Positions 12,535 to 41,291 of a stretch of DNA of 41,487 nucleotides are shown here, in pieces. Source of the DNA: Minisyncoccota bacterium (GTDB taxonomy: Bacteria; Patescibacteriota; Minisyncoccia; Phycocordibacterales; UBA9973). Each line of letters starts with the position of its first letter. Position 1 is the first letter of the stretch. The position numbers and the translations under genes were made by a program. Under the pieces are notes generated by a model. The model was not told where the DNA came from, made no database searches, and saw only the letters and a program-made list of their open reading frames with translations. The DNA lies in assembly GCA_017992305.1 (NCBI GenBank), contig JAGOOX010000003.1:1-41487 (forward strand). The letters are read 5' to 3'.

Positions 12535-13020
12535 TTAATATAGTTTTGAAAAATAAATAGTAATTAACCAAGGGATAACAGATAACAATATCAAAATCAA
12601 CGAAATTTTTAGATAAGAAAATTTTTTAGATAAAATTTGTGCATTTATATGCGTTTGACTAAGAAGGTCATCCAAATATTCTTCATCTGTTAAATCTTTA
12701 AATCTTTTTTTAAAATCACTAACTTTTAAATTTGCGATTGTTCCGAAATAAATTAAAGATGCATTGCTGGACTTGGTTTTAGGGTATTGGCTTTTATAAA
12801 CAAAAATTAAACTAGTGAACAGTAACCCTAATGCTAATCCAAAAGATAAATAAATATACATAGGTTGATTACAAAATGATGTAATTGCATTTACAAGGAC
12901 ACCAAGCATCGCAATGGCAATACCGGAAACAAAAGCAATCCTTGAATCATATCGACTTATCCAATCGAGCTTTCTTTGAAGATTTAGTTCCGCTTGCTCT
13001 ATTCTAATTTTCATAAGCAT
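12535..13020 (-). CDS. pycTM: Pycsar TM effector (PycTM-like)
   Basis: 161 residues. An amphipathic N-terminus leads into ISRYDSRIAFVSGIAIAML (first membrane helix); a second helix is at about YLSFGLALGLLFTSLIF and a third at the C-terminus (LILILLSVIPWLITIYF). The cytosolic part has SLIYFGTIANL and YLDDLLSQTHINAQILSKKF. This is the pattern of the Pycsar membrane effector family (formerly DUF5706, from memory), which disrupts the inner membrane when cyclic pyrimidine nucleotide binds. The ATG at 13020 is chosen because a TATAAT lies 24 bases upstream, inside the longer reading frame. First gene of a two-gene operon with the cyclase. Confidence 0.87.
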   Translation of the reverse strand: MLMKIRIEQAELNLQRKLDWISRYDSRIAFVSGIAIAMLGVLVNAITSFCNQPMYIYLSFGLALGLLFTSLIFVYKSQYPKTKSSNASLIYFGTIANLKVSDFKKRFKDLTDEEYLDDLLSQTHINAQILSKKFSYLKISLILILLSVIPWLITIYFSKLY

Positions 13021-13044
13021 TTTATTTAATCTAATAATATGCAC

Positions 13045-13073
13045 ATTATATACCAAAAAAAGCAATAGTCATA
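13045..13073 (-). promoter_or_regulatory. Promoter of the Pycsar operon
   Basis: Perfect TATAAT at 13050-13045, preceded at 17 bases by the weak -35 TATGAC. The start of transcription should be near 13038, giving a leader of about 18 bases. Confidence 0.6.
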
Positions 13074-29337: not shown

Positions 29338-29988
29338 CTATTTCATGAAAAACAGCATTTCATTTATTTTCAATAAAGCAGATTCAAATTTTGAATCTGG
29401 TCTTTTTAGGTAATCGGCTAATTTTTTGTTAAACTCCAGCCTTTTTTCTAGGCTAATTGAGTCATACTCAAACGATCTACTTTTTAGATGGGCTAAAACT
29501 TTCATTAACCAAACTCTGTTATCGATAGTTAAGTTTAACAACAAGAATTCAGGGTTTTGTTTTAACTCATTTGCCAATTGCACCTCTGTGTCGCACGTAA
29601 TTGTTGCAATACAGAATTTTGCTACATTGATATTTTTTCTAACAAATTGTTTAAAATCGCTAGAAATTGTTTGCAGTCCACCTATTTCGTCAATAATTAA
29701 AATAGAGCTCTTGTCTACTTGTATGTCTTTTATGACTTGCAGTATTTGGGCTACGTTAACATAATAATCGCCAACCTTGAATTTATTGTTAGTTGTTTGC
29801 TTGTGGGCGATTGTTCCAGATTCCTTGGTTTTAATATTTGTCATAGTAAAACCAATTCTTGTTTTATTACTAATTAATATTTCAGTAGTAATAAAACCTA
29901 TTGATTTCTCAAAACCCTCTTGGGATATTAGCCCCAGTAGTAAAGTGCTTTTGCCTATGCCCGACGGGGCAGTTAATAGTATTACCAT
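29338..29988 (-). CDS. THEP1-like nucleoside-triphosphatase
   Basis: 216 residues. P-loop APSGIGKST (7-15), then GFITTEILISNKTRIGFTM, VGDYYVN and Walker B SSILIIDEIGGL, the pattern of the THEP1/NTPase_1 family, P-loop NTPases of uncertain cellular role that hydrolyse NTPs slowly. The C-terminal 60 residues are an extra lysine-rich helical part. The start at 29988 is set by a strong Shine-Dalgarno (AAGGAGG) upstream; the longer frame would have to start at a TTG and would encode that site. Confidence 0.85.
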   Translation of the reverse strand: MVILLTAPSGIGKSTLLLGLISQEGFEKSIGFITTEILISNKTRIGFTMTNIKTKESGTIAHKQTTNNKFKVGDYYVNVAQILQVIKDIQVDKSSILIIDEIGGLQTISSDFKQFVRKNINVAKFCIATITCDTEVQLANELKQNPEFLLLNLTIDNRVWLMKVLAHLKSRSFEYDSISLEKRLEFNKKLADYLKRPDSKFESALLKINEMLFFMK

Positions 29989-30000
29989 TTTTTTTGATTT

Positions 30001-30007
30001 CCTCCTT
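30001..30007 (-). promoter_or_regulatory. Strong Shine-Dalgarno of the THEP1-like gene
   Basis: AAGGAGG 12 bases before the ATG on the minus strand. It stands out because most genes here have no recognisable Shine-Dalgarno. Confidence 0.7.
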
Positions 30008-30069
30008 GTGAACAATATAAGAACTTGTATATTTTGTCAAACTTTGTCTAAAATTTATCTTGCTTGGTC

Positions 30070-30106: not shown

Positions 30107-30178
30107 TCCTTGGTAGCTCAGCGGTAGAGCGGTCGCCTGTTAAGCGATTGGTCGTAGGTTCGAATCCTACCCAAGGAG
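30107..30178 (+). tRNA. tRNA-Asn (GTT anticodon), likely integration target
   Basis: Acceptor TCCTTGG/CCAAGGA, D arm GCTC/GAGC, anticodon stem GTCGC/GCGAT with loop CTGTTAA (anticodon GTT), T arm GTAGG-TTCGAAT-CCTAC, discriminator G. CCA is not encoded. Its last 12 bases overlap the 3' end of the convergent serine recombinase gene, the arrangement expected at one end of an element inserted into a tRNA gene. Confidence 0.96.
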
Positions 30179-31864
30179 CATTGTAGAAAAAAGTGGGTCA
30201 AATGACTCATTTTTTTCATTTAAGCCTTGTTCTGCAAAGCTTAATTTAGGTTCGAACTTTGGAAATTCTGACTTTATACGTTTTATGCCGTCAGTGAGTA
30301 CTTGTATTGATTTTTTGTTATAAATACTAAGTATTTCGTCGTTCCACACTAGGTTCGAACCAAGGCTTGAAAGTATGTTTCTTTTGGCTTGAAATGATCC
30401 GTTTTGTAAAATCTCAATAGTGCCTTGGGTTAGTTCTGTGATATCTATCATTTCTTGATACCAATCTAAGCTTGATGGGCCTGGCGTGCCTATATCAGAA
30501 TATTCATTTTTTAGATTATTTAAATCAATTTCATAATCGCTATCTGTTATCTTGCTATCTCGAAGCAGGCCACGCAGTCGTGATTTTTTCGATTCAAAAT
30601 CTTGACCCCGTGATTCTTTGTTTTGGGCCATTAAAATATTTTCTGAAATCTCTTTATTTTTCATTTCGTGTATATGTTTTTTAGACCAATCAATTAAGTC
30701 TTTTGAGAAGTTTAGATTTTTATCAATAAAATCCAATAGTTGTGTGGTTATAATTTCTTCGGTTATTGACTTATATTTTTGGCCCGACTTCTTCTTTTTA
30801 ACATTATAGTAATAGGACTTATTCAAGTATTTTGGGTTTTCCATTTTATCAATTTCAATACCGCAACTAGGGCAGTGACTTTTGCTTCTAAAGGCAAATT
30901 TGTTTTTACAGTCACATATAACTTGAAACTTTACGTCTTGACCCATAAAATTACCTTCTTCTGATTGTATAAAGCCAGAGTATATTGATTCGTGACTTTG
31001 TATCTTTGGTATATTTTTACGTGAAAGTATTTGCTTTACTTTGTTGTGTTCTGATTCTGTAATAAGTCTTGGTAAATTTTTATCAAGCTCATACCTTTCG
31101 CCACCGTAAAAGAAGAATCCTGCATATACTGGGTCTTTTAGTATTTCATATATTCTAGACATAACAATTGGGTTTCCACCGCTTCTTTTTCTTTCGGCTG
31201 TTGTTAGGTTAAGTTCGTCTACGGCATATTTATAAAGTTTACCTGCTGAATATGTTCCTGTTAAAAATAGCTCAAAAAGTTTTTTTATTTTCCATATTCT
31301 TTTTTCGTCAACAAGCCACTTTCGATTACCTTTTTCTTCTGTCCTGTCATTAAGAAATCCTAGCGAGGAGACTCCGTGAGGTATTCCCATTGAAGCCTTT
31401 TTAACGTGTCCTCGCTTAACATTTACAGAAAGATCTTTAACATACTGTTTACCTTGGCCAAATTCAACCGACATAAGTAAAACATTATCTGAAGGGTAAT
31501 AAACTTTATCGTGAGTGATGATTGCTTTTATAACACCCGAACTTAACAGGTCGATAATTATTCCACCCTCGCTCATATTTCTAGCTAATCGGTCAATCTT
31601 CCAGCAAACAATTGAATCGGCCATACCTACGTTTATCATTCTTAACATTTCAATAAATTTAGGCCTGCAAGATTCTTTTTTTGCAGACTTAGATTCTTCA
31701 AAAACATTCACAAAGTTTGGTAGTTTGTAAAAATCCACAATTCTTTTTGCTTCGTCTTTTTGAGATTCGATAGATAGCATTTGCTTATCCTCGCTTTCCG
31801 AAGACTTTCTAAAATATCCGATAGGTTTAAGTTTTGTAAAATCTAGTTGGTTATAATTATTCAT
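30167..31864 (-). CDS. Large serine recombinase
   Basis: 565 residues. N-terminal resolvase domain with catalytic serine in GYFRKSSESEDKQMLSIESQ and the arginine region DSIVCWKIDRLARN; recombinase domain (YEILKDPVYAGFFFYGGERY); a zinc ribbon CDC...CPSC at about residues 340-361; and a coiled-coil-rich C-terminus. These enzymes integrate and excise phages and mobile elements at specific att sites. The start at 31864 is chosen because the extension would need a TTG within the terminator run. The stop lies within tRNA-Asn, so this end of the element is probably intact. Confidence 0.95.
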   Translation of the reverse strand: MNNYNQLDFTKLKPIGYFRKSSESEDKQMLSIESQKDEAKRIVDFYKLPNFVNVFEESKSAKKESCRPKFIEMLRMINVGMADSIVCWKIDRLARNMSEGGIIIDLLSSGVIKAIITHDKVYYPSDNVLLMSVEFGQGKQYVKDLSVNVKRGHVKKASMGIPHGVSSLGFLNDRTEEKGNRKWLVDEKRIWKIKKLFELFLTGTYSAGKLYKYAVDELNLTTAERKRSGGNPIVMSRIYEILKDPVYAGFFFYGGERYELDKNLPRLITESEHNKVKQILSRKNIPKIQSHESIYSGFIQSEEGNFMGQDVKFQVICDCKNKFAFRSKSHCPSCGIEIDKMENPKYLNKSYYYNVKKKKSGQKYKSITEEIITTQLLDFIDKNLNFSKDLIDWSKKHIHEMKNKEISENILMAQNKESRGQDFESKKSRLRGLLRDSKITDSDYEIDLNNLKNEYSDIGTPGPSSLDWYQEMIDITELTQGTIEILQNGSFQAKRNILSSLGSNLVWNDEILSIYNKKSIQVLTDGIKRIKSEFPKFEPKLSFAEQGLNEKNESFDPLFSTMLLG

Positions 31865-31867
31865 AGA

Positions 31868-31987
31868 CAAAAATGAGGCAACGACCGATTACTTTTAGTT
31901 GCTACACCAAAGAAGAGTCGTTACCTCGTTTTTATATACAAGAATACTGTTTTTATTTTAATATTCTTATATTTCTTTGGTGTAGCA
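31868..31987 (-). promoter_or_regulatory. Conditional-terminator/pseudoknot leader of the recombinase
   Basis: On the minus strand, GAGGTAACGAC (31927-31917) pairs with GTCGTTGCCTC (31885-31875; one mismatch) and is followed by a U-rich run that ends four bases before the recombinase ATG. The hairpin loop contains TTCTTTGGTGTAGCA (31914-31900), an exact complement of TGCTACACCAAAGAA (31987-31973) upstream. The two stems cross, so they can form a pseudoknot or compete. Confidence 0.7.
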
Positions 31988-32405: not shown

Positions 32406-32639
32406 TTAAGCCGTTTTTATGCACTCCTCGGGCCCGTTGGACAAAAGATCTAAGTGGTTAATTTGTGCCCTGGATTCGCTTTTTACGTATTCATTTTCGG
32501 GCACCAATTCGTAATACGCTTTTGATATAGATCTTGGCGAAAACTGTTTTCTTGCCACTGCCATAGCCAAGCAAGGGTATGCACCCAGGTTTGGATTGTT
32601 TTTAGAAATTTTTTCAAAATTACTTTTAATTGATCTCAT
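32406..32639 (-). CDS. Small hypothetical protein, third gene of overlapping operon
   Basis: 77 residues, soluble, basic N-terminal half (RSIKSNFEKISKNNPNLGAY, MAVARKQFSPRSISKAYYEL) and a more acidic end. Family not recognised. Its ATG overlaps the end of the preceding gene by 14 bases, so it is translationally coupled and probably made together with it. Position next to the recombinase suggests a role in element transfer or excision. Confidence 0.6.
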   Translation of the reverse strand: MRSIKSNFEKISKNNPNLGAYPCLAMAVARKQFSPRSISKAYYELVPENEYVKSESRAQINHLDLLSNGPEECIKTA

Positions 32640-32814
32640 CGTGCTTGTTAATGTTGGTAGTCATTTTATGTTTTAGGTTTTCTGACAATAGGGTAAATAG
32701 CATAAATCCAATCTCGTTAACCTCGTCGTCATTCAGGTTAATGTCAAAATTCTCTCCGTATGATTTTCGAAGAGCTAATCTTAAATCTTGAATTGCAATG
32801 CTACTTAATTTCAT
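32626..32814 (-). CDS. Small hypothetical protein, second gene of overlapping operon
   Basis: 62 residues, mostly one helical domain (IQDLRLALRKSYGENFDINL, then NDDEVNEIGFMLFTLLSENLK). No known family recognised. It overlaps the upstream RHH-like gene and the downstream gene by 14 bases each, an unusually regular coupling. Confidence 0.6.
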   Translation of the reverse strand: MKLSSIAIQDLRLALRKSYGENFDINLNDDEVNEIGFMLFTLLSENLKHKMTTNINKHDEIN

Positions 32815-33107: not shown

Positions 33108-33737
33108 TTAAATAATTTTATACTTGTTATTTATATAATACCCTCCTTCGTTTTCAATTAATTTATACTTAGTTCCTAGATTTAAATCCTTACTAGCCTT
33201 TTCGTTTATTTCAGAGATGGTTCTTGGAATATTCGGAGCAATGCCTAGTTCAGTTCCTTTTAAAGGGGAATTACTTTTTGATAATTTTGTTAGTATTTCG
33301 AGTGGCATTTTTTCAACCTTAAAGTGACAAGTAAGTACTTGGCCTCCAATTTCTTTTTTAAGAATATTACCTTCAAGTTGTAATATTATAACCCCATTAT
33401 TTTCAGGTGCTATTTCAAGAAGGTTAGCCAATTCTTCTTTCATAGATTTAGCAGAAAATAAATGCTTATTTATAAGTATGCTTTCAGATAACGAGTCTTC
33501 CATAAGAAAGTTTTTTTCTATAATAAATTTTTTATTAAAAATATTAGACAGTCTATTTATGTCTTCAGTATTAAATTCTGAAACCCTTATTAAGGATAAG
33601 GGTATTTCTATATTGATAAAAGACATTGATTTTCTTGCCATTTCAAATTTTTGTTTATCTATAAAATCAACAAGTCTTAGTAGTTTTTCTACATCAGATT
33701 TTATTAAATTAAACTGTTCAATAGTGCTTGAGTCCAT
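33108..33737 (-). CDS. Putative regulator of the element, function unknown
   Basis: 209 residues. An N-terminal helical part (FNLIKSDVEKLLRLVDFIDK) precedes a mixed alpha/beta centre. The C-terminal 60 residues, KGTELGIAPNIPRTISEINE to IENEGGYYINNKYKII, resemble the end of a winged-helix DNA-binding domain, but weakly. A TGTCGACA palindrome lies just downstream of its probable -10 box, with a second copy at the divergent promoter, which suggests autoregulation. Confidence 0.55.
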   Translation of the reverse strand: MDSSTIEQFNLIKSDVEKLLRLVDFIDKQKFEMARKSMSFINIEIPLSLIRVSEFNTEDINRLSNIFNKKFIIEKNFLMEDSLSESILINKHLFSAKSMKEELANLLEIAPENNGVIILQLEGNILKKEIGGQVLTCHFKVEKMPLEILTKLSKSNSPLKGTELGIAPNIPRTISEINEKASKDLNLGTKYKLIENEGGYYINNKYKII

Positions 33738-33961: not shown

Positions 33962-34010
33962 ACAATTTAATATGGACCTAACCCCTAGAGATCACTTTAG
34001 GATATGGTCA

Positions 34011-34121
34011 TAAGCCCCGCTAAAGCATAAAGAACTCCTAGTCAGAGTTTGGCTTTAGCGGGCTGTGCCTGGAAACGGGCATAAGTGATCGAAAGATTAC
34101 TCATCTGGCTAGGAGCTTTTT
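34011..34121 (+). ncRNA. Structured RNA with possible pseudoknot, leader of the 34155 gene
   Basis: CCCGCTAAAGC (34016-34026) pairs with GCTTTAGCGGG (34052-34062). The enclosed CTCCTAG (34035-34041) is complementary to CTAGGAG (34109-34115), which precedes a T-run. Between them are two GAAA-capped hairpins: TGCCTG/CGGGCA (34066-34081) and AGTGATC/GATTACT (34084-34101). GATCACTT at 33990 could also pair with AAGTGATC. TAAGCCCCGCTAAAG recurs at 34138-34152, directly before the next ATG, so the central strand can pair with either copy. It matches no riboswitch or ribozyme class I recognise. Confidence 0.7.
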
Positions 34122-34154
34122 GTGTCCTAACTAGAATTAAGCCCCGCTAAAGTT

Positions 34155-34496
34155 ATGGAAAATACAAATAACAATTCTCAAAAATGGTACAAAACGTCAA
34201 AAGGCAAGGCGGTTATTTTTTTACTAATAATGTTCTTTTTAAGCAGAAATTTTCTTTTGGGTGTTTTTATACTTCCAATAGCTTATGGAGTTAAGAAGGG
34301 CGATAAGGGTGCCTTTATTGCTGGTGGTATTTATTCTCTTGTTATGACTTTGGTTAATTGCGCGATTTATGTTTCGAGTAAATACGACGTAAGCGGAAAG
34401 TTTTCATCTAGCTTAACCCCTATATACCTATACGTAATACTTTGTGTGGTTATTATAAAATTATTAATTAGTGCCCATAAAGAATCCAAGGGGTAA
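34155..34496 (+). CDS. Small membrane protein, function unknown
   Basis: 113 residues with four hydrophobic stretches (about 17-31, 32-45, 53-73, 90-106) and polar ends. No family recognised. Its start codon directly follows a repeat that can base-pair with the upstream structured RNA, so translation may be controlled by RNA folding. The next small membrane protein begins four bases after its stop. Confidence 0.65.
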   Translation: MENTNNNSQKWYKTSKGKAVIFLLIMFFLSRNFLLGVFILPIAYGVKKGDKGAFIAGGIYSLVMTLVNCAIYVSSKYDVSGKFSSSLTPIYLYVILCVVIIKLLISAHKESKG

Positions 34497-34500
34497 ATAT

Positions 34501-34725
34501 ATGAAAAAAATAAAAATAATATCAATAATAGTCTTAATCCTTCTTATAACGTTTGCTATATATAAACGCTATAAATATGAGGTCAAGATTTTAAACTATT
34601 GCGTGGCTCAGGGCATATACGAATCTTGGGATAAAAAAAGAGACGAATTTTCTAATACTGAGTATAATAAATGCATCAAGGACTCAAGGGTTATATTTTT
34701 ACTACGCAACGCCAATAAAAAATAG
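34501..34725 (+). CDS. Small signal-anchored protein
   Basis: 74 residues from the ATG at 34501 (MKKIKIISIIVLILLITFAI), a basic N-terminus with one membrane helix followed by a polar extracytoplasmic domain with two cysteines (NYCVAQG, YNKCIKD). Not recognised. An upstream ATG at 34471 would overlap the previous gene. The pair could be a small membrane module accompanying the defence gene downstream. Confidence 0.6.
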   Translation: MKKIKIISIIVLILLITFAIYKRYKYEVKILNYCVAQGIYESWDKKRDEFSNTEYNKCIKDSRVIFLLRNANKK

Positions 34726-34800: not shown

Positions 34801-37800
34801 ATGATAAAATCAAGCCTTATGGAATCCCAAGAAAATGAAACTATACAAGATATTAAAGACCTGATCAAAAGACCAGTTGCTTCAATAATTTCTCCCCCTG
34901 TCACTCCAAATGCCCAAAGTTTACCGTTTAATAATTTAAGCTGGGAGGATTTTGAGGTTTTATGTCTTAAGCTTGTTTCAAACGAAGCAAATGTTGAAGA
35001 AGCAAGACCATATGGCACAAAAGGGCAAAAACAAGATGGGATTGATGTTTATGCAAAGATGAAAAATAATTCTGACTACTCAGTATATCAATGTAAGAAT
35101 GAAAAGGATTTTAGTCCATCAAAAATAGAAAAGGCAGTGACTAAATTTATTGATGGCAAATGGTTAAAATCTACAAAAACTTTTGTTTTATGTAGTCAAG
35201 AAAGTCTTGCTTCTACAATAAGATCAGATGAAATAGAGAAACAAAGAAATAGACTGGGTAAGGAAAAAGTTAAATTTGAGATTTGGGATACAGTAAAATT
35301 AAACCAAAAACTTAAATCAAATCCGCAATTAGTTTTCGACACATTTGGACCTGAATGGTTAAAAAACTTTTGTGGAGAGTCAGTCGCTACTAGCATAATT
35401 ACAACTTCTCCAAAAATTGATACTCTTAAACTTAAAAAGGATCTTTTGAATTTCTATCAATATACTTTTGCGTTTCACGATCCTGGTATACCCAGTTCAG
35501 CTATTGGTAAGCAAAACATACCACTACAAGATAGATTTGTTGTACCTTTTATAAATGAAAAAACTTCGTATTCGGAAACTCTTGAGAAAGCATCTGAAAG
35601 TGACGAGGATATAGACACCTCACTTGTAGGTGCTGATGTAGAAGAAGATCGAGTAAAGATTATTAAGGCTAGGGCCTCAATATTAAATGATTTTAACGAC
35701 CAAAGAAAGAACATAGATAATTGGCTTGCTTTAAGTAATAAAAACATTATATTAGGAGAGCCTGGTAGTGGAAAAACAATGCTACTGAGATTTATAGCAT
35801 TAGATTTATTAAAAAATACTAACCAACTTGAGAACCTTTCCAATGAATACAGAGACCATATTCCACTATGGATTTCTTTTGCCTTTTGGACGAAGATGAT
35901 TTCTCAAAAGCAAGATTTATCGATGAACGAAATTATCGAGAAGTGGCTCAACAGTTGGTCAAAAAGCGAACTCGTACCTCTGATAAACCAAGCATTGTCG
36001 ACAAAAAAGATTTTACTTTTAGTAGATGGTCTTGACGAATGGAGCGACGAATTATCAGCTAAAATTGCAATAGATCGATTGAGCATATTTGTTGGAGAAA
36101 ATAATCTCCCAACTTTTATTACGAGCAGAATAAATGGATTTAAAAAGTTAGGAATATCAACAATAGACTGGAAAGTAGGTTATATAGAGGGCTTTGATGC
36201 AAATCAACAGAAAGAGTTGAGTAATATTTGGTTTAAAGCAAGAGTCAAAGAAATACATTCTGGCGAAAAGCAAGTCTCGGCTGAAGTCATCTCAAAAGAA
36301 TCTGCCTTAGAGACTCAGAATTTCTTAGAAGAATTACAAAATTCTCCTGCACTCAAAGAACTTGGGAGAATTCCGTTACTCCTTTCTCTCTTAATCCTTC
36401 TAAAATTACAGAAAATAAAATTACCTCAAAATAGATTTAAAGCTTACGATGAATTGATAAATCATTTGATCGGTGTTCATCCTGAAAAAAGAAAAGTAAC
36501 TTCTGGAGCTAATGTTAAAGAGCTTACTTTTTCAAACGACGAACTCAAAAAAATTTTTTCTCATTTAGCTTTTACTATTCAAAGTGTTAACGGTAGTGGA
36601 ACTATTGATCAAGAAGAGGCAAAGAAAAATATAATAAGATTTCTTATTGATGATAGTTACGGTTTGTCTTCCTCAGAAGTTGACGCTAAAAAGATTGCTT
36701 CTGTTATTGTTGAAGTTGGCGAAGATAATCTTGGATTACTTGTTAAAAAATCACCTCAAGAAATTGGCTTCTTTCATAGGGCCTTTCAGGAATATTTATC
36801 AGCTTTCCATATATCTAGATTGCCTTTAAAAGAACAGAAAAAAATTATTTTAGAAAACTCCACAAACCCTCAATGGAAAGAGGTTATTCTGAGTATGTTT
36901 AATCTCTCAATGAGAAACGAAGATACTGACAACTTTATTGATCTTCTTTTACCGCTAAGAAAAGACTTAAGTAATAAACCAGCCATAGACTCTATTTTAT
37001 ATGAAGTTGCGTTTGGTGACTTTAATTGTTCTCCTAAAAAAGCTAGAGACTTAATCAATGAGGCTTTTAATGACGTAGAATCTCCGCTACCTATTAGTTA
37101 TAGAGAAAAAGTTCTAGGTCAAATACTGGGCGGTCTTAGATCAGCTCAAGCTAGAAAAATTGTTGAGGAAAAACTACACTATTGGTTTCCTAATCAACTC
37201 GGTGGTTATTGGAATAAAGACTCTGTTTATAAGGAGATGTCATCTTGGCCAAAAGAAACAGTTACTTTGGACACATTATGGCTAGGAGTAGTTGATGGAT
37301 CGAGAAACGCAGGTAAGAGCTTGGCTGCTATTTATAAAAATGACAAAGCTCTTGAGAGAAAACTAGAAGAACTAATCCACTCCACTACAAATCCAACAGT
37401 TCAAGCTGTTGCTCTGGAGGCATTATTAATTGGATGGAAGAATGGCTCGGTGACTAAAAAATTGTTTGGTATGATAAAAGACTCTACAAACTCTGCACTA
37501 AAAACGTTGTCAATAATATACAAGATTGCCAATAAGCAACAGACAGAAAAAGATAGAAAAGACCTCATTTGGCTATCTAATTGGGAGAGTGGCCTCTCGA
37601 ATCAATGGCAAGCCGATATAGCGGATCTTTTAATGAAGGGTTGGCCTCATTCGCAATTAACAAAGAAAGTGGCTTTAAGCTCATATGCTTCTTATGGCCG
37701 TGAATTTGATAGAACCCCAGCACTAACTGTTCTCCTAAAAGATTATCCGTATGATAAAGATGTAAGGGGTTTCGCTCTTAATCAAATAAAATATGATCAG

Positions 37801-39786
37801 CATCCATTTTCGAGCATTCATCTAGACTCTTGGAAAATGTTAAGTACCAGTTTTAAAGATGATCCTGAATTAATATTAGCAATCGATGAATGGATAACTT
37901 CCAAAAACCCTATGGATACAGATGCCTCTTTAGCTTCTCTTTTAGGAAGAACAGAAGTCTGTAAAAAATATTTAATAAAAAAAGTACAAGAGAGAGGGTT
38001 TATTCATTGGCCAGCGTCTGCGCTTCTTGATGGTTGGGGTATTAAAGATCCTGACGTTAAATCCGTATTAGTAAAAATTGCGAGAGGGCCCGTAACTAAA
38101 GCATCTTCTGTGGCACATCTTATCCCTAGAATAATTATTGATCCAAAAGAAGCTAAGAACTTGTTGATGAAAATGATGCGAGATAAAAAATGCGAAAGGA
38201 TAGACTTCGCAGTTGAAGGATTGTCTCAATTAAACAAATCGAAAAAAATGGAGGGAGAAATTGTTACATTTATTATCGACGAGGTTCTTCCTCGAAAAAA
38301 AGCTAGAATGTATGACGGTTTTTTACATAGATTCATAAGAGAATTTTCAAAGGATAGTAGGGTTAAAGAAATTGCAAAAACTGTTTTAATCGACAAAGAC
38401 TTTGATGCTTCAATAGCGGCTGGCGTATATTTTAAAGACGGTGAAATTAGACAAAGAATTAATACTCTGATGCGTTCATTGCCTACATCTTTAAAGATGG
38501 TAATAGCGAAATATTTAGCTGAAAATACGATAGATATTGAATTTGAATCAACTATTTTAAGTTCTTACGATATGGATCACGACGAAGATGTTAAAGTTCA
38601 GGCATCTATTGGTTTCTACAACAAGTTAAAATCTAAAGGTCAAGATAATTCTACTGTTTTAGCAAAACTCATTGAGGATATTGGTTGTTACGGACCCGAT
38701 TATACAGAACGTCGATTGGCCGCATTTTGTGGGCTCTTTATCTTAGGACACCTACCTAAGGTTTTAACTCTAAATGAAAAAATGAGATCGGCGGATAAAA
38801 CAGAAAGATTTGTAAACATTTCAGTAATTGAAGGTATGAGAATTAATTTGCCAATGATTAAATTTGTACTTGAAAATTGGGATGAAATAAAATTAATATT
38901 AAAAACAGAGTTTTGGCAAAGACTATTTGCACACCATTCATCCTCTGAATATGTGTGGGATAAGTTATGTATACTTGCCGATAAATATAACACGCCCAAA
39001 AAAGAGGCTTTGGGTTATTTCACAAATCTTCATACAAAAGTAGCAAGATCAAATAGTCTGTATTTCCTAGAAAGAACTGTCCCTAAAAGCCTTCTTCTTC
39101 TGGAGTACTGCTTAAATGTTATAGCTGTTACAAATAGAAACGACCCACAATACCTTAGGCATAATGAAATAACTCATAGTGATAGTCTGGTGGCAGTTGA
39201 AATTCTGGGCAGGAATTTTAAGGGAGATGAAAAAGTTCAAGAAATGATTGAAGCCAGGATTAATACTAAAATGCCTGTTGATGAGAATGCAATTAAACTA
39301 TTAAGCGAGGGATGGCCCAACAGTACCTATCTACAAACATCTTTCGACTATCTTGCAAAGAACAGCCCTCAAATTTCTTGGGGTACTTATTTTAGAATGG
39401 TTAGTTTAAAAGGGAGTAATAAAGCAATTATTAAAGGTGTTTCTGATCTACTTATGACATATGAAAAAACTCCTCAAAATGCTAGATTTTTTTCATCGAT
39501 CATTAAACCCGTCTTAAAAAGGCTTCAGAAAGATGACGAGTTGTATCAACTAATGTTAAAGAAAATTAAATCTGACTGCACTTTTTCTGAAAGAATAAGT
39601 TTCCTACAATTAATCCTAAAAGCTCGTGGTTTGAATAGTGAAACAAAGTTTATCTTAGCTACAATATCAAAGAAAATAACCAAAGAGAACGTCTTTGACT
39701 ACGGTTTTGATATTACTGATGGGGAAATTAAAACGTTGAAAAGGGTATTGGCAAATTTTTACTTCCAAGAAAAATCGTACTCATAA
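34801..39786 (+). CDS. Giant STAND protein: PD-(D/E)XK nuclease - NACHT - helical repeat sensor
   Basis: 1661 residues. Residues about 45-120 form a restriction-endonuclease-like (Mrr-type) domain with D79/D82 (QDGID) and Q97-x-K99 (YQCKN). The NACHT NTPase has Walker A GEPGSGKT (319-326), Walker B ILLLVDGLDEW (404-414) and sensor FITSRINGF, ending near FFHRAFQEYLSAFH. The remaining roughly 900 residues are alpha-helical repeats suited to sensing a ligand. This is the plan of Avs/bNACHT anti-phage proteins, where phage-protein binding triggers oligomerisation and DNA cutting. Arginine is almost always AGA/AGG, unlike the core genes, which suggests transfer. Which Avs class, and what it senses, cannot be read from the sequence. 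Confidence 0.88.
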   Translation: MIKSSLMESQENETIQDIKDLIKRPVASIISPPVTPNAQSLPFNNLSWEDFEVLCLKLVSNEANVEEARPYGTKGQKQDGIDVYAKMKNNSDYSVYQCKNEKDFSPSKIEKAVTKFIDGKWLKSTKTFVLCSQESLASTIRSDEIEKQRNRLGKEKVKFEIWDTVKLNQKLKSNPQLVFDTFGPEWLKNFCGESVATSIITTSPKIDTLKLKKDLLNFYQYTFAFHDPGIPSSAIGKQNIPLQDRFVVPFINEKTSYSETLEKASESDEDIDTSLVGADVEEDRVKIIKARASILNDFNDQRKNIDNWLALSNKNIILGEPGSGKTMLLRFIALDLLKNTNQLENLSNEYRDHIPLWISFAFWTKMISQKQDLSMNEIIEKWLNSWSKSELVPLINQALSTKKILLLVDGLDEWSDELSAKIAIDRLSIFVGENNLPTFITSRINGFKKLGISTIDWKVGYIEGFDANQQKELSNIWFKARVKEIHSGEKQVSAEVISKESALETQNFLEELQNSPALKELGRIPLLLSLLILLKLQKIKLPQNRFKAYDELINHLIGVHPEKRKVTSGANVKELTFSNDELKKIFSHLAFTIQSVNGSGTIDQEEAKKNIIRFLIDDSYGLSSSEVDAKKIASVIVEVGEDNLGLLVKKSPQEIGFFHRAFQEYLSAFHISRLPLKEQKKIILENSTNPQWKEVILSMFNLSMRNEDTDNFIDLLLPLRKDLSNKPAIDSILYEVAFGDFNCSPKKARDLINEAFNDVESPLPISYREKVLGQILGGLRSAQARKIVEEKLHYWFPNQLGGYWNKDSVYKEMSSWPKETVTLDTLWLGVVDGSRNAGKSLAAIYKNDKALERKLEELIHSTTNPTVQAVALEALLIGWKNGSVTKKLFGMIKDSTNSALKTLSIIYKIANKQQTEKDRKDLIWLSNWESGLSNQWQADIADLLMKGWPHSQLTKKVALSSYASYGREFDRTPALTVLLKDYPYDKDVRGFALNQIKYDQHPFSSIHLDSWKMLSTSFKDDPELILAIDEWITSKNPMDTDASLASLLGRTEVCKKYLIKKVQERGFIHWPASALLDGWGIKDPDVKSVLVKIARGPVTKASSVAHLIPRIIIDPKEAKNLLMKMMRDKKCERIDFAVEGLSQLNKSKKMEGEIVTFIIDEVLPRKKARMYDGFLHRFIREFSKDSRVKEIAKTVLIDKDFDASIAAGVYFKDGEIRQRINTLMRSLPTSLKMVIAKYLAENTIDIEFESTILSSYDMDHDEDVKVQASIGFYNKLKSKGQDNSTVLAKLIEDIGCYGPDYTERRLAAFCGLFILGHLPKVLTLNEKMRSADKTERFVNISVIEGMRINLPMIKFVLENWDEIKLILKTEFWQRLFAHHSSSEYVWDKLCILADKYNTPKKEALGYFTNLHTKVARSNSLYFLERTVPKSLLLLEYCLNVIAVTNRNDPQYLRHNEITHSDSLVAVEILGRNFKGDEKVQEMIEARINTKMPVDENAIKLLSEGWPNSTYLQTSFDYLAKNSPQISWGTYFRMVSLKGSNKAIIKGVSDLLMTYEKTPQNARFFSSIIKPVLKRLQKDDELYQLMLKKIKSDCTFSERISFLQLILKARGLNSETKFILATISKKITKENVFDYGFDITDGEIKTLKRVLANFYFQEKSYS

Positions 39787-39791
39787 TTATT

Positions 39792-40457
39792 TTATTTATA
39801 CTCAGGTTTAATTTCATAAACTCTTGAATCAAGAGAGTTTTCCTTGAAATCAAATTGTTTTAGATTTACAAAGTCTGAACCTACAGGCAAATCAATAAAC
39901 ACTCCTTGTTTGTAATCAAAATCAGGAGATTTCACTAAAGTTAAAAGTTTTACTATATCAAATAGTCTAGCTTCCTTGTCGGTGTTACTGGTCTTCTTTG
40001 CTTCTATAACAATGTAGTTATTTGAAGTACCTCTCTGGTGAACAATAATATCAGGATATACGGTTTTCTCGATGGTTTTACCGTTGGTTAGTTTAAGTAT
40101 GAAGTAAACTATTTCTAATTCTTCATCATATTTAAATTTAGGGTTTCGAAGTTGATTCTCTAGGTTTCTTATTTCTTCGTATGAGAAAGCTTCACGATTT
40201 ATATTTTCTTTATAAAAATTTCCCTCAAGAGTGTTTGCCATTTGAGTCAACAGCATACCTGGATCTATGAGTATCTTTTTTTTACTACCAAGGTTTCTGT
40301 TGTATTCACAATCAACATTCCAACTAGAGAAGAGGTACTGATAGTATTCGGCTAATTTATGAGTAATAGAACGTTCATTTAGGTTATTAGCTAACAAATA
40401 AGCGTCATTACTAATGAGCAGGTGTAGTCCAGCTTTTACTCGGTAATTTAACCCCAT
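39792..40457 (-). CDS. PD-(D/E)XK nuclease-like protein
   Basis: 221 residues. A helix with ITHKLAEYYQYL (possible motif I Glu37) precedes the core YPDIIVHQRG (D136) and YIVIEAKK (E152-x-K154), the PD-(D/E)XK signature of restriction-like nucleases. No helicase or methylase accompanies it. Its stop is 5 bases from the end of the convergent NACHT gene. It may be a partner effector or a lone nuclease-like defence gene; DNA cleavage is inference from the motif. Confidence 0.72.
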   Translation of the reverse strand: MGLNYRVKAGLHLLISNDAYLLANNLNERSITHKLAEYYQYLFSSWNVDCEYNRNLGSKKKILIDPGMLLTQMANTLEGNFYKENINREAFSYEEIRNLENQLRNPKFKYDEELEIVYFILKLTNGKTIEKTVYPDIIVHQRGTSNNYIVIEAKKTSNTDKEARLFDIVKLLTLVKSPDFDYKQGVFIDLPVGSDFVNLKQFDFKENSLDSRVYEIKPEYK

Positions 40458-40787: not shown

Positions 40788-41291
40788 ATGTTTACAAAAA
40801 AAATTGAAGTGACCAAGCTGGAAGCTTGTGCGCTAAACCTTATTCAATGGTTCTTTCAAGAAATGACTATTCAAAAAAATAGTGATTTTGAAAAAAATGA
40901 AAGACTAAGTTTTTCTCAAATCAACTTAAAAATTGACGACGACCCTAACCACAGTTTGGATGAACTTCCTTCAAACAAAAGCTACAAGTACAAAAGGGTG
41001 AGAGTAAAAGCTCAGTTTATTTTACCGGAGGAAAGGATCAGACACAAAAAGCCTAAAAAAGACTATTCTGACTGGTTAACTGCCGAAATTCTTTTTATAA
41101 GGGATTCTGAATCTGCAACAGAAACAGATTGGAGCCTCTTGGGGGTTTCCGTTGAATTTCATTTCGTATACCACGGTGGACTTGAAAGATTTCACATAGA
41201 AAACTTTTTTCGGTCACGGAATAGAAACGAGGTGGATACAATAGGTAAGCGTGAAGAACTGATTGCCTTTAGTGAATATCTTTTAAGTTAA
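40788..41291 (+). CDS. Hypothetical protein in a repeat-flanked unit
   Basis: 167 residues, soluble, charged (SYKYKRVRVKAQFILPEERI, SVEFHFVYHGGLERFHIENF). No family recognised. It has a strong promoter, a long structured leader, its own terminator, and lies between two near-identical hairpin repeats. Position at the end of a defence-gene region makes an accessory defence or toxin role possible, but nothing in the sequence proves it. Confidence 0.6.
   Translation: MFTKKIEVTKLEACALNLIQWFFQEMTIQKNSDFEKNERLSFSQINLKIDDDPNHSLDELPSNKSYKYKRVRVKAQFILPEERIRHKKPKKDYSDWLTAEILFIRDSESATETDWSLLGVSVEFHFVYHGGLERFHIENFFRSRNRNEVDTIGKREELIAFSEYLLS

Follow-up and report, generated by a model that had tools for sequence, protein, structure and literature searches.

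Here we characterize a 41,487-nucleotide contig (hereafter, the window) from a Minisyncoccota bacterium whose assembly comprises 609 kb in 52 contigs and is 88% complete; the genomes of its relatives span 0.4–1.1 Mb. The window carries a receptor gene (P0001; positions 34801–39786, forward strand) in which an N-terminal nuclease, a NACHT module and a C-terminal HEAT-like solenoid, the predicted sensor, are joined in one protein of 1661 amino acids. The reading frame begins with ATG and contains no internal stops over 1661 codons (ORF listing and translation), confirming an earlier note made from the DNA sequence that had reported a large ORF at this position. A chance ORF was ruled out by shuffling (50 mononucleotide shuffles of the whole window gave open stretches of at most 193 codons), and a decayed or broken gene was ruled out by the lack of stops and the retention of active residues. 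With 0.8% of the assembly devoted to it, the gene is indeed costly coding for a small genome, as the same note had remarked.

The genes around the receptor are mostly small and were characterized through ORF listing and Pfam scans. On the same strand, a LOOT RNA (RF03000; 33975–34101, +; Rfam 79.8 bits, E 3.8e-14) lies 5′ of the cargo and is followed by a hydrophobic ORF of 113 amino acids (34155–34496, +) and an ORF of 84 amino acids with a hydrophobic N-terminus (34471–34725, +), both preceding the receptor gene. Convergent with the receptor gene is an ORF of 221 amino acids (39792–40457, −) that matches a PADLOC-type defence model, PD-Lambda-3_A (4.9e-25), and in which a PD-(D/E)XK-like motif can be seen by eye. 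The last ORF before the contig end encodes 167 amino acids of no assigned family (40788–41291, +).

A serine-recombinase island at tRNA-Asn

The receptor gene resides on an island whose left side is formed by a tRNA-Asn(gtt) gene, the attachment target (30107–30179, +; tRNA/RNA scan), and a large serine recombinase of 567 amino acids (30167–31870, −; Resolvase 2.8e-15, Recombinase 3.5e-7). The recombinase gene covers the last 13 nt of the tRNA gene and its reading frame stops inside the tRNA 3′ end. A putative attL core, GGAGCATTGTAGAAAAAA (30175–30192, +), recurs where the recombinase body ends in another genome of the same bacterial family (G004) and is closely matched in G040 (sequence comparison). 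Such an arrangement, with a shared core and the recombinase placed at the 3′ end of a tRNA gene, is that of a tRNA-targeted serine-recombinase island, and related recombinases overlap tRNA-Asn in the same manner in G040 and G1286. The mobile-element context proposed in the earlier note is thereby supported for the left side; the contig stops at 41487, so the right end of the island lies beyond it. Neither the window nor 39.5 kb of contig sequence from G1286 contained the tRNA 3′ end a second time, and a search run without a positive control found no recombinase tail elsewhere in the host assembly. Repeats resembling TTCGAACTTCGTCCCA, both direct and inverted, are scattered through the element and close to where the contig stops (30248–30264, 40585–40611, 41368–41394 and 41451–41467).

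Comparison with the G004 element (recombinase 60% identical) separates the chassis of the island from its cargo. The two share DNA up to the junction, 77 nt (90%) on the upstream side of the gene, and two small ORFs (32406–32639 and 32626–32814, both −), each 42% identical to its G004 relative, but the G004 element has neither the NACHT gene nor the other ORFs past the RNA. Judged by these alignments, the element chassis is native to the bacterial family of the host and carries different cargo in G004. A further element ORF in the window, of 209 amino acids (33108–33737, −), has no assigned family. The G004 recombinase gene continues for 36 residues beyond the junction (L062, around 9360), and in a further genome (G1282) a similar tail (61%) occurs at 2552–2671 of L132, directly after a 60% identical recombinase. 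Together, the two tailed and three tRNA-joined cases suggest that the recombinase gene contains the attachment site and has its tail replaced upon integration. At the tRNA-Asn gene of G004, yet another recombinase overlaps the tRNA; the stretch before it holds a type II restriction–modification pair and a gene resembling PifA (3.3e-96; L063, 6629–10812).

Nuclease, NACHT and solenoid modules of the receptor

The N-terminal domain (residues ~44–182; 34930–35346, +) is probably a PD-(D/E)XK nuclease of the Mrr/LmuA kind. Although the Mrr-like nuclease of the earlier note was weakly recovered when Mrr_cat was run on the whole protein (E 0.059; Pfam scan), searches confined to the N-terminus gave a clearer family signal—Mrr_cat matched the N-terminal parts of four of six family members (best 2.5e-5) and the N-terminus of the receptor itself matched the PADLOC model for LmuA (E 3.7e-8). 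The E, D and (E/Q)-x-K motif conserved in the PD-(D/E)XK superfamily is present as E52, D82 and Q97-x-K99, all identical in the alignment of the seven members that possess this part (7/7). Of the acidic residues, E52 and D82 are invariant, whereas D79 is not conserved, and the alignment accordingly marks D82, not D79, as the predicted catalytic aspartate; of the residues singled out previously, K99 and the Walker A lysine K325 were correct and D79 was not. An AlphaFold2 model of residues 1–770 (5 sequences, pLDDT 75.2) predicts a helix (48–62), three strands (63–71, 80–87 and 93–99), a helix (106–118) and a strand (127–132), an order that fits the PD-(D/E)XK core, and places D82 and K99 on adjacent strands. 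Among the structure matches listed, none was confined to the nuclease part, given that the model was searched jointly with the NACHT module, which fills the match lists. The same nuclease module is found on a protein that is otherwise unlike the receptor (L002; 49% identity over residues 12–199) and on otherwise different proteins in G916 and G845, in the manner of interchangeable effectors. It resembles the nuclease domain of LmuA, the Lamassu effector, with the difference that in the receptor it is fused to NACHT; the neighbouring ORFs that were scanned matched no Lamassu model.

The NACHT module and its subsequent helical parts occupy residues ~300–770 (35698–37110, +), with Walker A at 319–326 (including K325) and Walker B at 405–413. 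The Pfam NACHT model scored 35 bits over residues 316–480, above its gathering score of 26.7 (39.5 bits in another scan), which bears out the NACHT noted earlier, and nSTAND3 remained below its cut-off (19.9 versus 27.2 bits). The P-loop and Walker B residues G319, K325, D409, D412 and E413 are identical in all eight aligned members. Comparison of the model (residues 205–770) with solved structures returned NOD2 (Z 19.2 over 412 residues, rmsd 6.3), NLRP3 (18.9) and NLRC4 (18.2), and matches ranked 1–44 were all NLR/NAIP entries or oocyte complexes that contain NLRPs; the first other entry had a Z of 11.7. Foldseek gave 77 matches at E ≤0.001, the best 50 of which were all of the same NLR/NAIP/oocyte-complex kind, at TM scores of ~0.2–0.35 of the query. 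Avs or bNACHT chains were absent from the best 50 matches of either comparison, an absence that is uninformative. The receptor therefore shares a predicted fold with metazoan NLRs over residues ~205–770, whereas those proteins carry leucine-rich repeats and PYD/CARD domains in place of its solenoid and nuclease; Pfam scans of the receptor found no LRR family. Part of the NACHT region is also alike in the antiphage NACHT proteins EruA and HyoA, and identity with either was rejected by NCBIfam: the EruA model requires 1000 bits and scored 18.8 bits, and the HyoA model gave no match to P0001 at E 0.01.

The remainder of the protein (residues ~760–1661; 37078–39783, +) is predicted to form a HEAT-like helical solenoid. 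A moderately confident AlphaFold2 model of residues 690–1661 (4 sequences, pLDDT 71.9) is all helical, with more than 50 helices, and ends in a small β-hairpin (1634–1645). The matching structures were HEAT solenoids such as SF3B1, the PP2A A subunit and importins (Foldseek best 2e-5), with Z up to 12.7, a range deemed uninformative for helical repeats because values of this size are common among them; we therefore limit the claim to a HEAT-like solenoid. Support at the sequence level comes from HEAT_2, which matched this part in two of four members (6.2e-6), and from artificial HEAT-like repeats (5.1e-6), although no Pfam HEAT model matched the sensor of the receptor alone at E 0.1. Sequence searches of solved structures yielded no relative of the receptor and mainly retrieved those artificial repeats and ABC ATPases.

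Pfam, PADLOC and the predicted models thus agree with the earlier proposal that nuclease, NACHT and sensor are combined in one ORF, with a sensing role predicted for the third part. The presence of a NACHT module that clears its cut-off and matches the NLR fold, and a predicted effector–NACHT–sensor layout, are the features of bNACHT proteins. The closest in plan are bNACHT25 and bNACHT32 (clade 6), which are reported to combine a PD-(D/E)XK effector and a NACHT switch with a C-terminal sensing part (PMC12169576). Compared by description, they differ from the receptor in that this part is an NCH1 domain rather than a HEAT-like solenoid of ~900 residues; NCH1 was absent from the Pfam matches of the receptor, which is informative only if Pfam contains an NCH1 model.

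Relatives, rarity and codon usage

Relatives of the receptor were sought in plasmids, viral contigs and bacterial genomes. Matches were found in 42 of 72,556 plasmid records (tblastn), mostly to the NACHT part only, and the sensor part as query matched four: Deinococcus aetherius (26% over 98%), Lysinibacillus (31.6%), Enterobacter hormaechei and Pantoea agglomerans. The Lysinibacillus match falls in several pieces across short annotated genes and is thus probably a broken copy. The annotation divides the Deinococcus copy between two genes (L003, 5953–6642 and 6816–10820), and the upstream frame leaves the family alignment near residue 150, where the copy looks to be split by a frameshift. A Streptomyces plasmid protein can be aligned with the receptor along its entire length. 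Contigs in IMG/VR contain three distinct full-length members: one adjoins a serine recombinase (L008), one adjoins a leucine-rich-repeat gene (L089; the identical sequence recurs in a second contig, L092) and one adjoins a tyrosine integrase on a prophage-like contig (L090), where a nearby ORF resembles a tape measure gene by eye. No match was obtained in phage records, in viral contigs with P0001 as the sole query, or in Escherichia coli genomes with the Enterobacter gene as query in near mode. In a Bacteroidota sample, 49 of 395 genomes matched, all partially—the nuclease module in G433, G916 and G845 and the NACHT region in the rest—and full-length relatives numbered 0/395.

Aligned with P0001, the members show 30–40% identity in the nuclease, 26–33% in NACHT and 17–26% in the sensor. 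Based on these comparisons, the receptor belongs to a rare, unnamed family spread over distant bacteria, and the C-terminal solenoid, common to this small family on plasmids and in viral contigs, is not unique to the host lineage. No shared neighbour gene was seen among the loci of the relatives, so this appears to be a one-gene system. Trees of the three modules (7–8 sequences) were weakly supported except for the Pantoea–L090 pair (1.0) and two NACHT splits (0.91–0.92), and we therefore leave the donor unnamed. Literature searches found no experimentally tested member of exactly this family; a recent screen validated P-loop/NACHT and PD-(D/E)XK systems that differ from those already described (PMC13092281), making it possible that a relative has already been tested.

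Within the lineage genomes searched, the receptor was seen in the host only. It was found in 1/60 relatives, 1/379 genomes of the phylum and 1/383 of the class, in each case the host alone (the samples overlap), and lineage-wide presence was thus rejected. In the order, NACHT exceeded its cut-off in 3 of 148 genomes, the host included; at E 0.001, 76 of the 148 matched, mostly over ~20–90 of the 167 positions for the weaker ones, which look like general P-loops. The ribosomal protein uL30 is not known from Patescibacteria, and its model matched 0/40 relatives versus 10/14 control genomes; together with the small genomes of the relatives, this points to Patescibacteria as the lineage of the host.

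Codon usage in the receptor gene is foreign-looking, in agreement with the AGA/AGG arginine bias observed previously: 55 of its 64 arginine codons are AGA or AGG, whereas 25 ORFs of the left flank use these two for 84 of their 279 (Fisher p 1.6e-16). The recent arrival that had been deduced from this bias and the element context stands in part. The bias and the patchy distribution (one genome in 383) fit it, but the element chassis is native to the bacterial family and two flank genes (12535–13065 and 29338–30015) are AGA/AGG-rich as well (84–100%). The setting fits the many horizontally acquired defence genes reported for Patescibacteria (PMC12455944).

Proposed function and the LOOT RNA

We propose that the protein is probably a single-gene, NLR-like antiphage receptor with a DNA-cutting, abortive-infection output. 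In the resting state, the C-terminal solenoid would lock NACHT in a closed form. A molecule derived from the infection, or a host molecule altered by it, would bind the solenoid and so release the NACHT module, which would oligomerize through nucleotide exchange and thereby bring the N-terminal PD-(D/E)XK domains together; the gathered nucleases would then cleave the DNA of both phage and host and halt the infection, probably through cell death or arrest. What the sequence shows is an intact three-module gene in a mobile context, with nuclease and P-loop residues conserved across distant relatives; the defence role, the oligomerization, DNA as the substrate and the trigger are inferred. An antiphage role is argued for by relatives on plasmids, beside a serine recombinase and beside a tyrosine integrase, by the recombinase island that carries the receptor next to a PD-Lambda-3_A-like ORF, and by the PifA-like and type II restriction genes at the G004 tRNA-Asn island. 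A DNA-cutting output is suggested by bNACHT25 and bNACHT32, in which experiments showed that both protection and the loss of DNA on infection require the PD-(D/E)XK domain (PMC12169576).

The receptor might instead be a weapon of the element, guarding the island through superinfection or competitor exclusion against rival elements or phages at the same tRNA site. This would suit its location on a serine-recombinase island, the other recombinases and defence genes at the tRNA-Asn sites of related genomes, and the relatives on plasmids and prophage-like contigs, but the receptor would be mechanistically the same and no element-specific trigger is known; we regard this use as unlikely. A divergent Avs (AVAST) receptor that recognizes terminase, portal or another packaging protein is less probable still. 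Avs2 and Avs4 follow the same nuclease–STAND–sensor plan, the Avs2 model matches the N-terminal nuclease of three of six members (best 5.4e-6; PADLOC), and Avs1–4 use nucleases against phage packaging proteins, with terminase, portal or similar proteins as activators (PMC12931631). However, P0001 matched none of the PADLOC models for Avs1–5 at E 0.01, the full-length relatives matched Avs2 solely at residues ~33–131 or 37–127, outside both ATPase and sensor, and the ATPase clears the Pfam cut-off for NACHT but not that for nSTAND3. Of the Avs/bNACHT plan put forward in the earlier note, the bNACHT/NLR-like side is thus supported and the Avs label is not, and its remark that the sensor could not be assigned to a known Avs type holds. 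A non-defence role, such as regulated cell death or signalling during epibiont–host cell contact, would accord with a Patescibacteria-like lineage, for whose members an episymbiotic life has been inferred (PMC13059738), but is scarcely credible given that the effector is a nuclease, that the named relatives occur in unrelated, cultured bacteria and that presence in one of 383 class genomes argues against a part in the lifestyle of the lineage.

Beyond the receptor itself, the island points to an association of the LOOT RNA with serine recombinases of this family. The region 33990–34155 has a fold z of −4.7, and the G004 element carries LOOT at the matching place (L062, 5538–5660), also 5′ of the cargo genes. 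LOOT was present in 41 of 100 relatives and in none of 14 controls. The 40 genomes covered by both recombinase and LOOT searches contain 23 LOOT hits (set 1), of which 17 lay within 6 kb of a recombinase hit and 15 of these 17 pointed away from it; for 20 of the remaining hits, from the upper part of the LOOT list and chosen before the recombinase search there (set 2), 13 loci lay within this distance, 12 of them divergent. Across both sets, 27 of 30 recombinase-near LOOT RNAs were divergent (loci including L125–L144), and the chance level for such proximity is at most 2.9%, calculated from rounded genome sizes. Hits with no recombinase within 6 kb (6/23 and 7/20) included one per set slightly beyond it (7.4 and 6.8 kb, both divergent) and some near contig ends. 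The literature searches surfaced one paper that names LOOT, PMC7657543, which concerns base pairing, and none on LOOT at mobile islands.

These observations allow a tentative joint reading, which we consider possible rather than probable. LOOT may be the leader (riboregulator) of recombinase-island cargo operons in this lineage, here controlling the nuclease–NACHT receptor; the same recombinases may have the attachment site within their reading frame, in which case insertion at tRNA-Asn would exchange their last ~35 residues for tRNA-encoded ones; and the HEAT-like solenoid may represent a sensor class without a characterized trigger.

A receptor with inflammasome-like build, from a family that is rare and unnamed, would thus reach even a genome of ~0.6 Mb by way of a tRNA island, and its named relatives in cultured bacteria (Pantoea, Deinococcus and Enterobacter plasmids) are places in which to seek its trigger. 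The more surprising lead is LOOT: the link between this structured RNA of unknown function and mobile islands with their cargo opens its role to direct testing.
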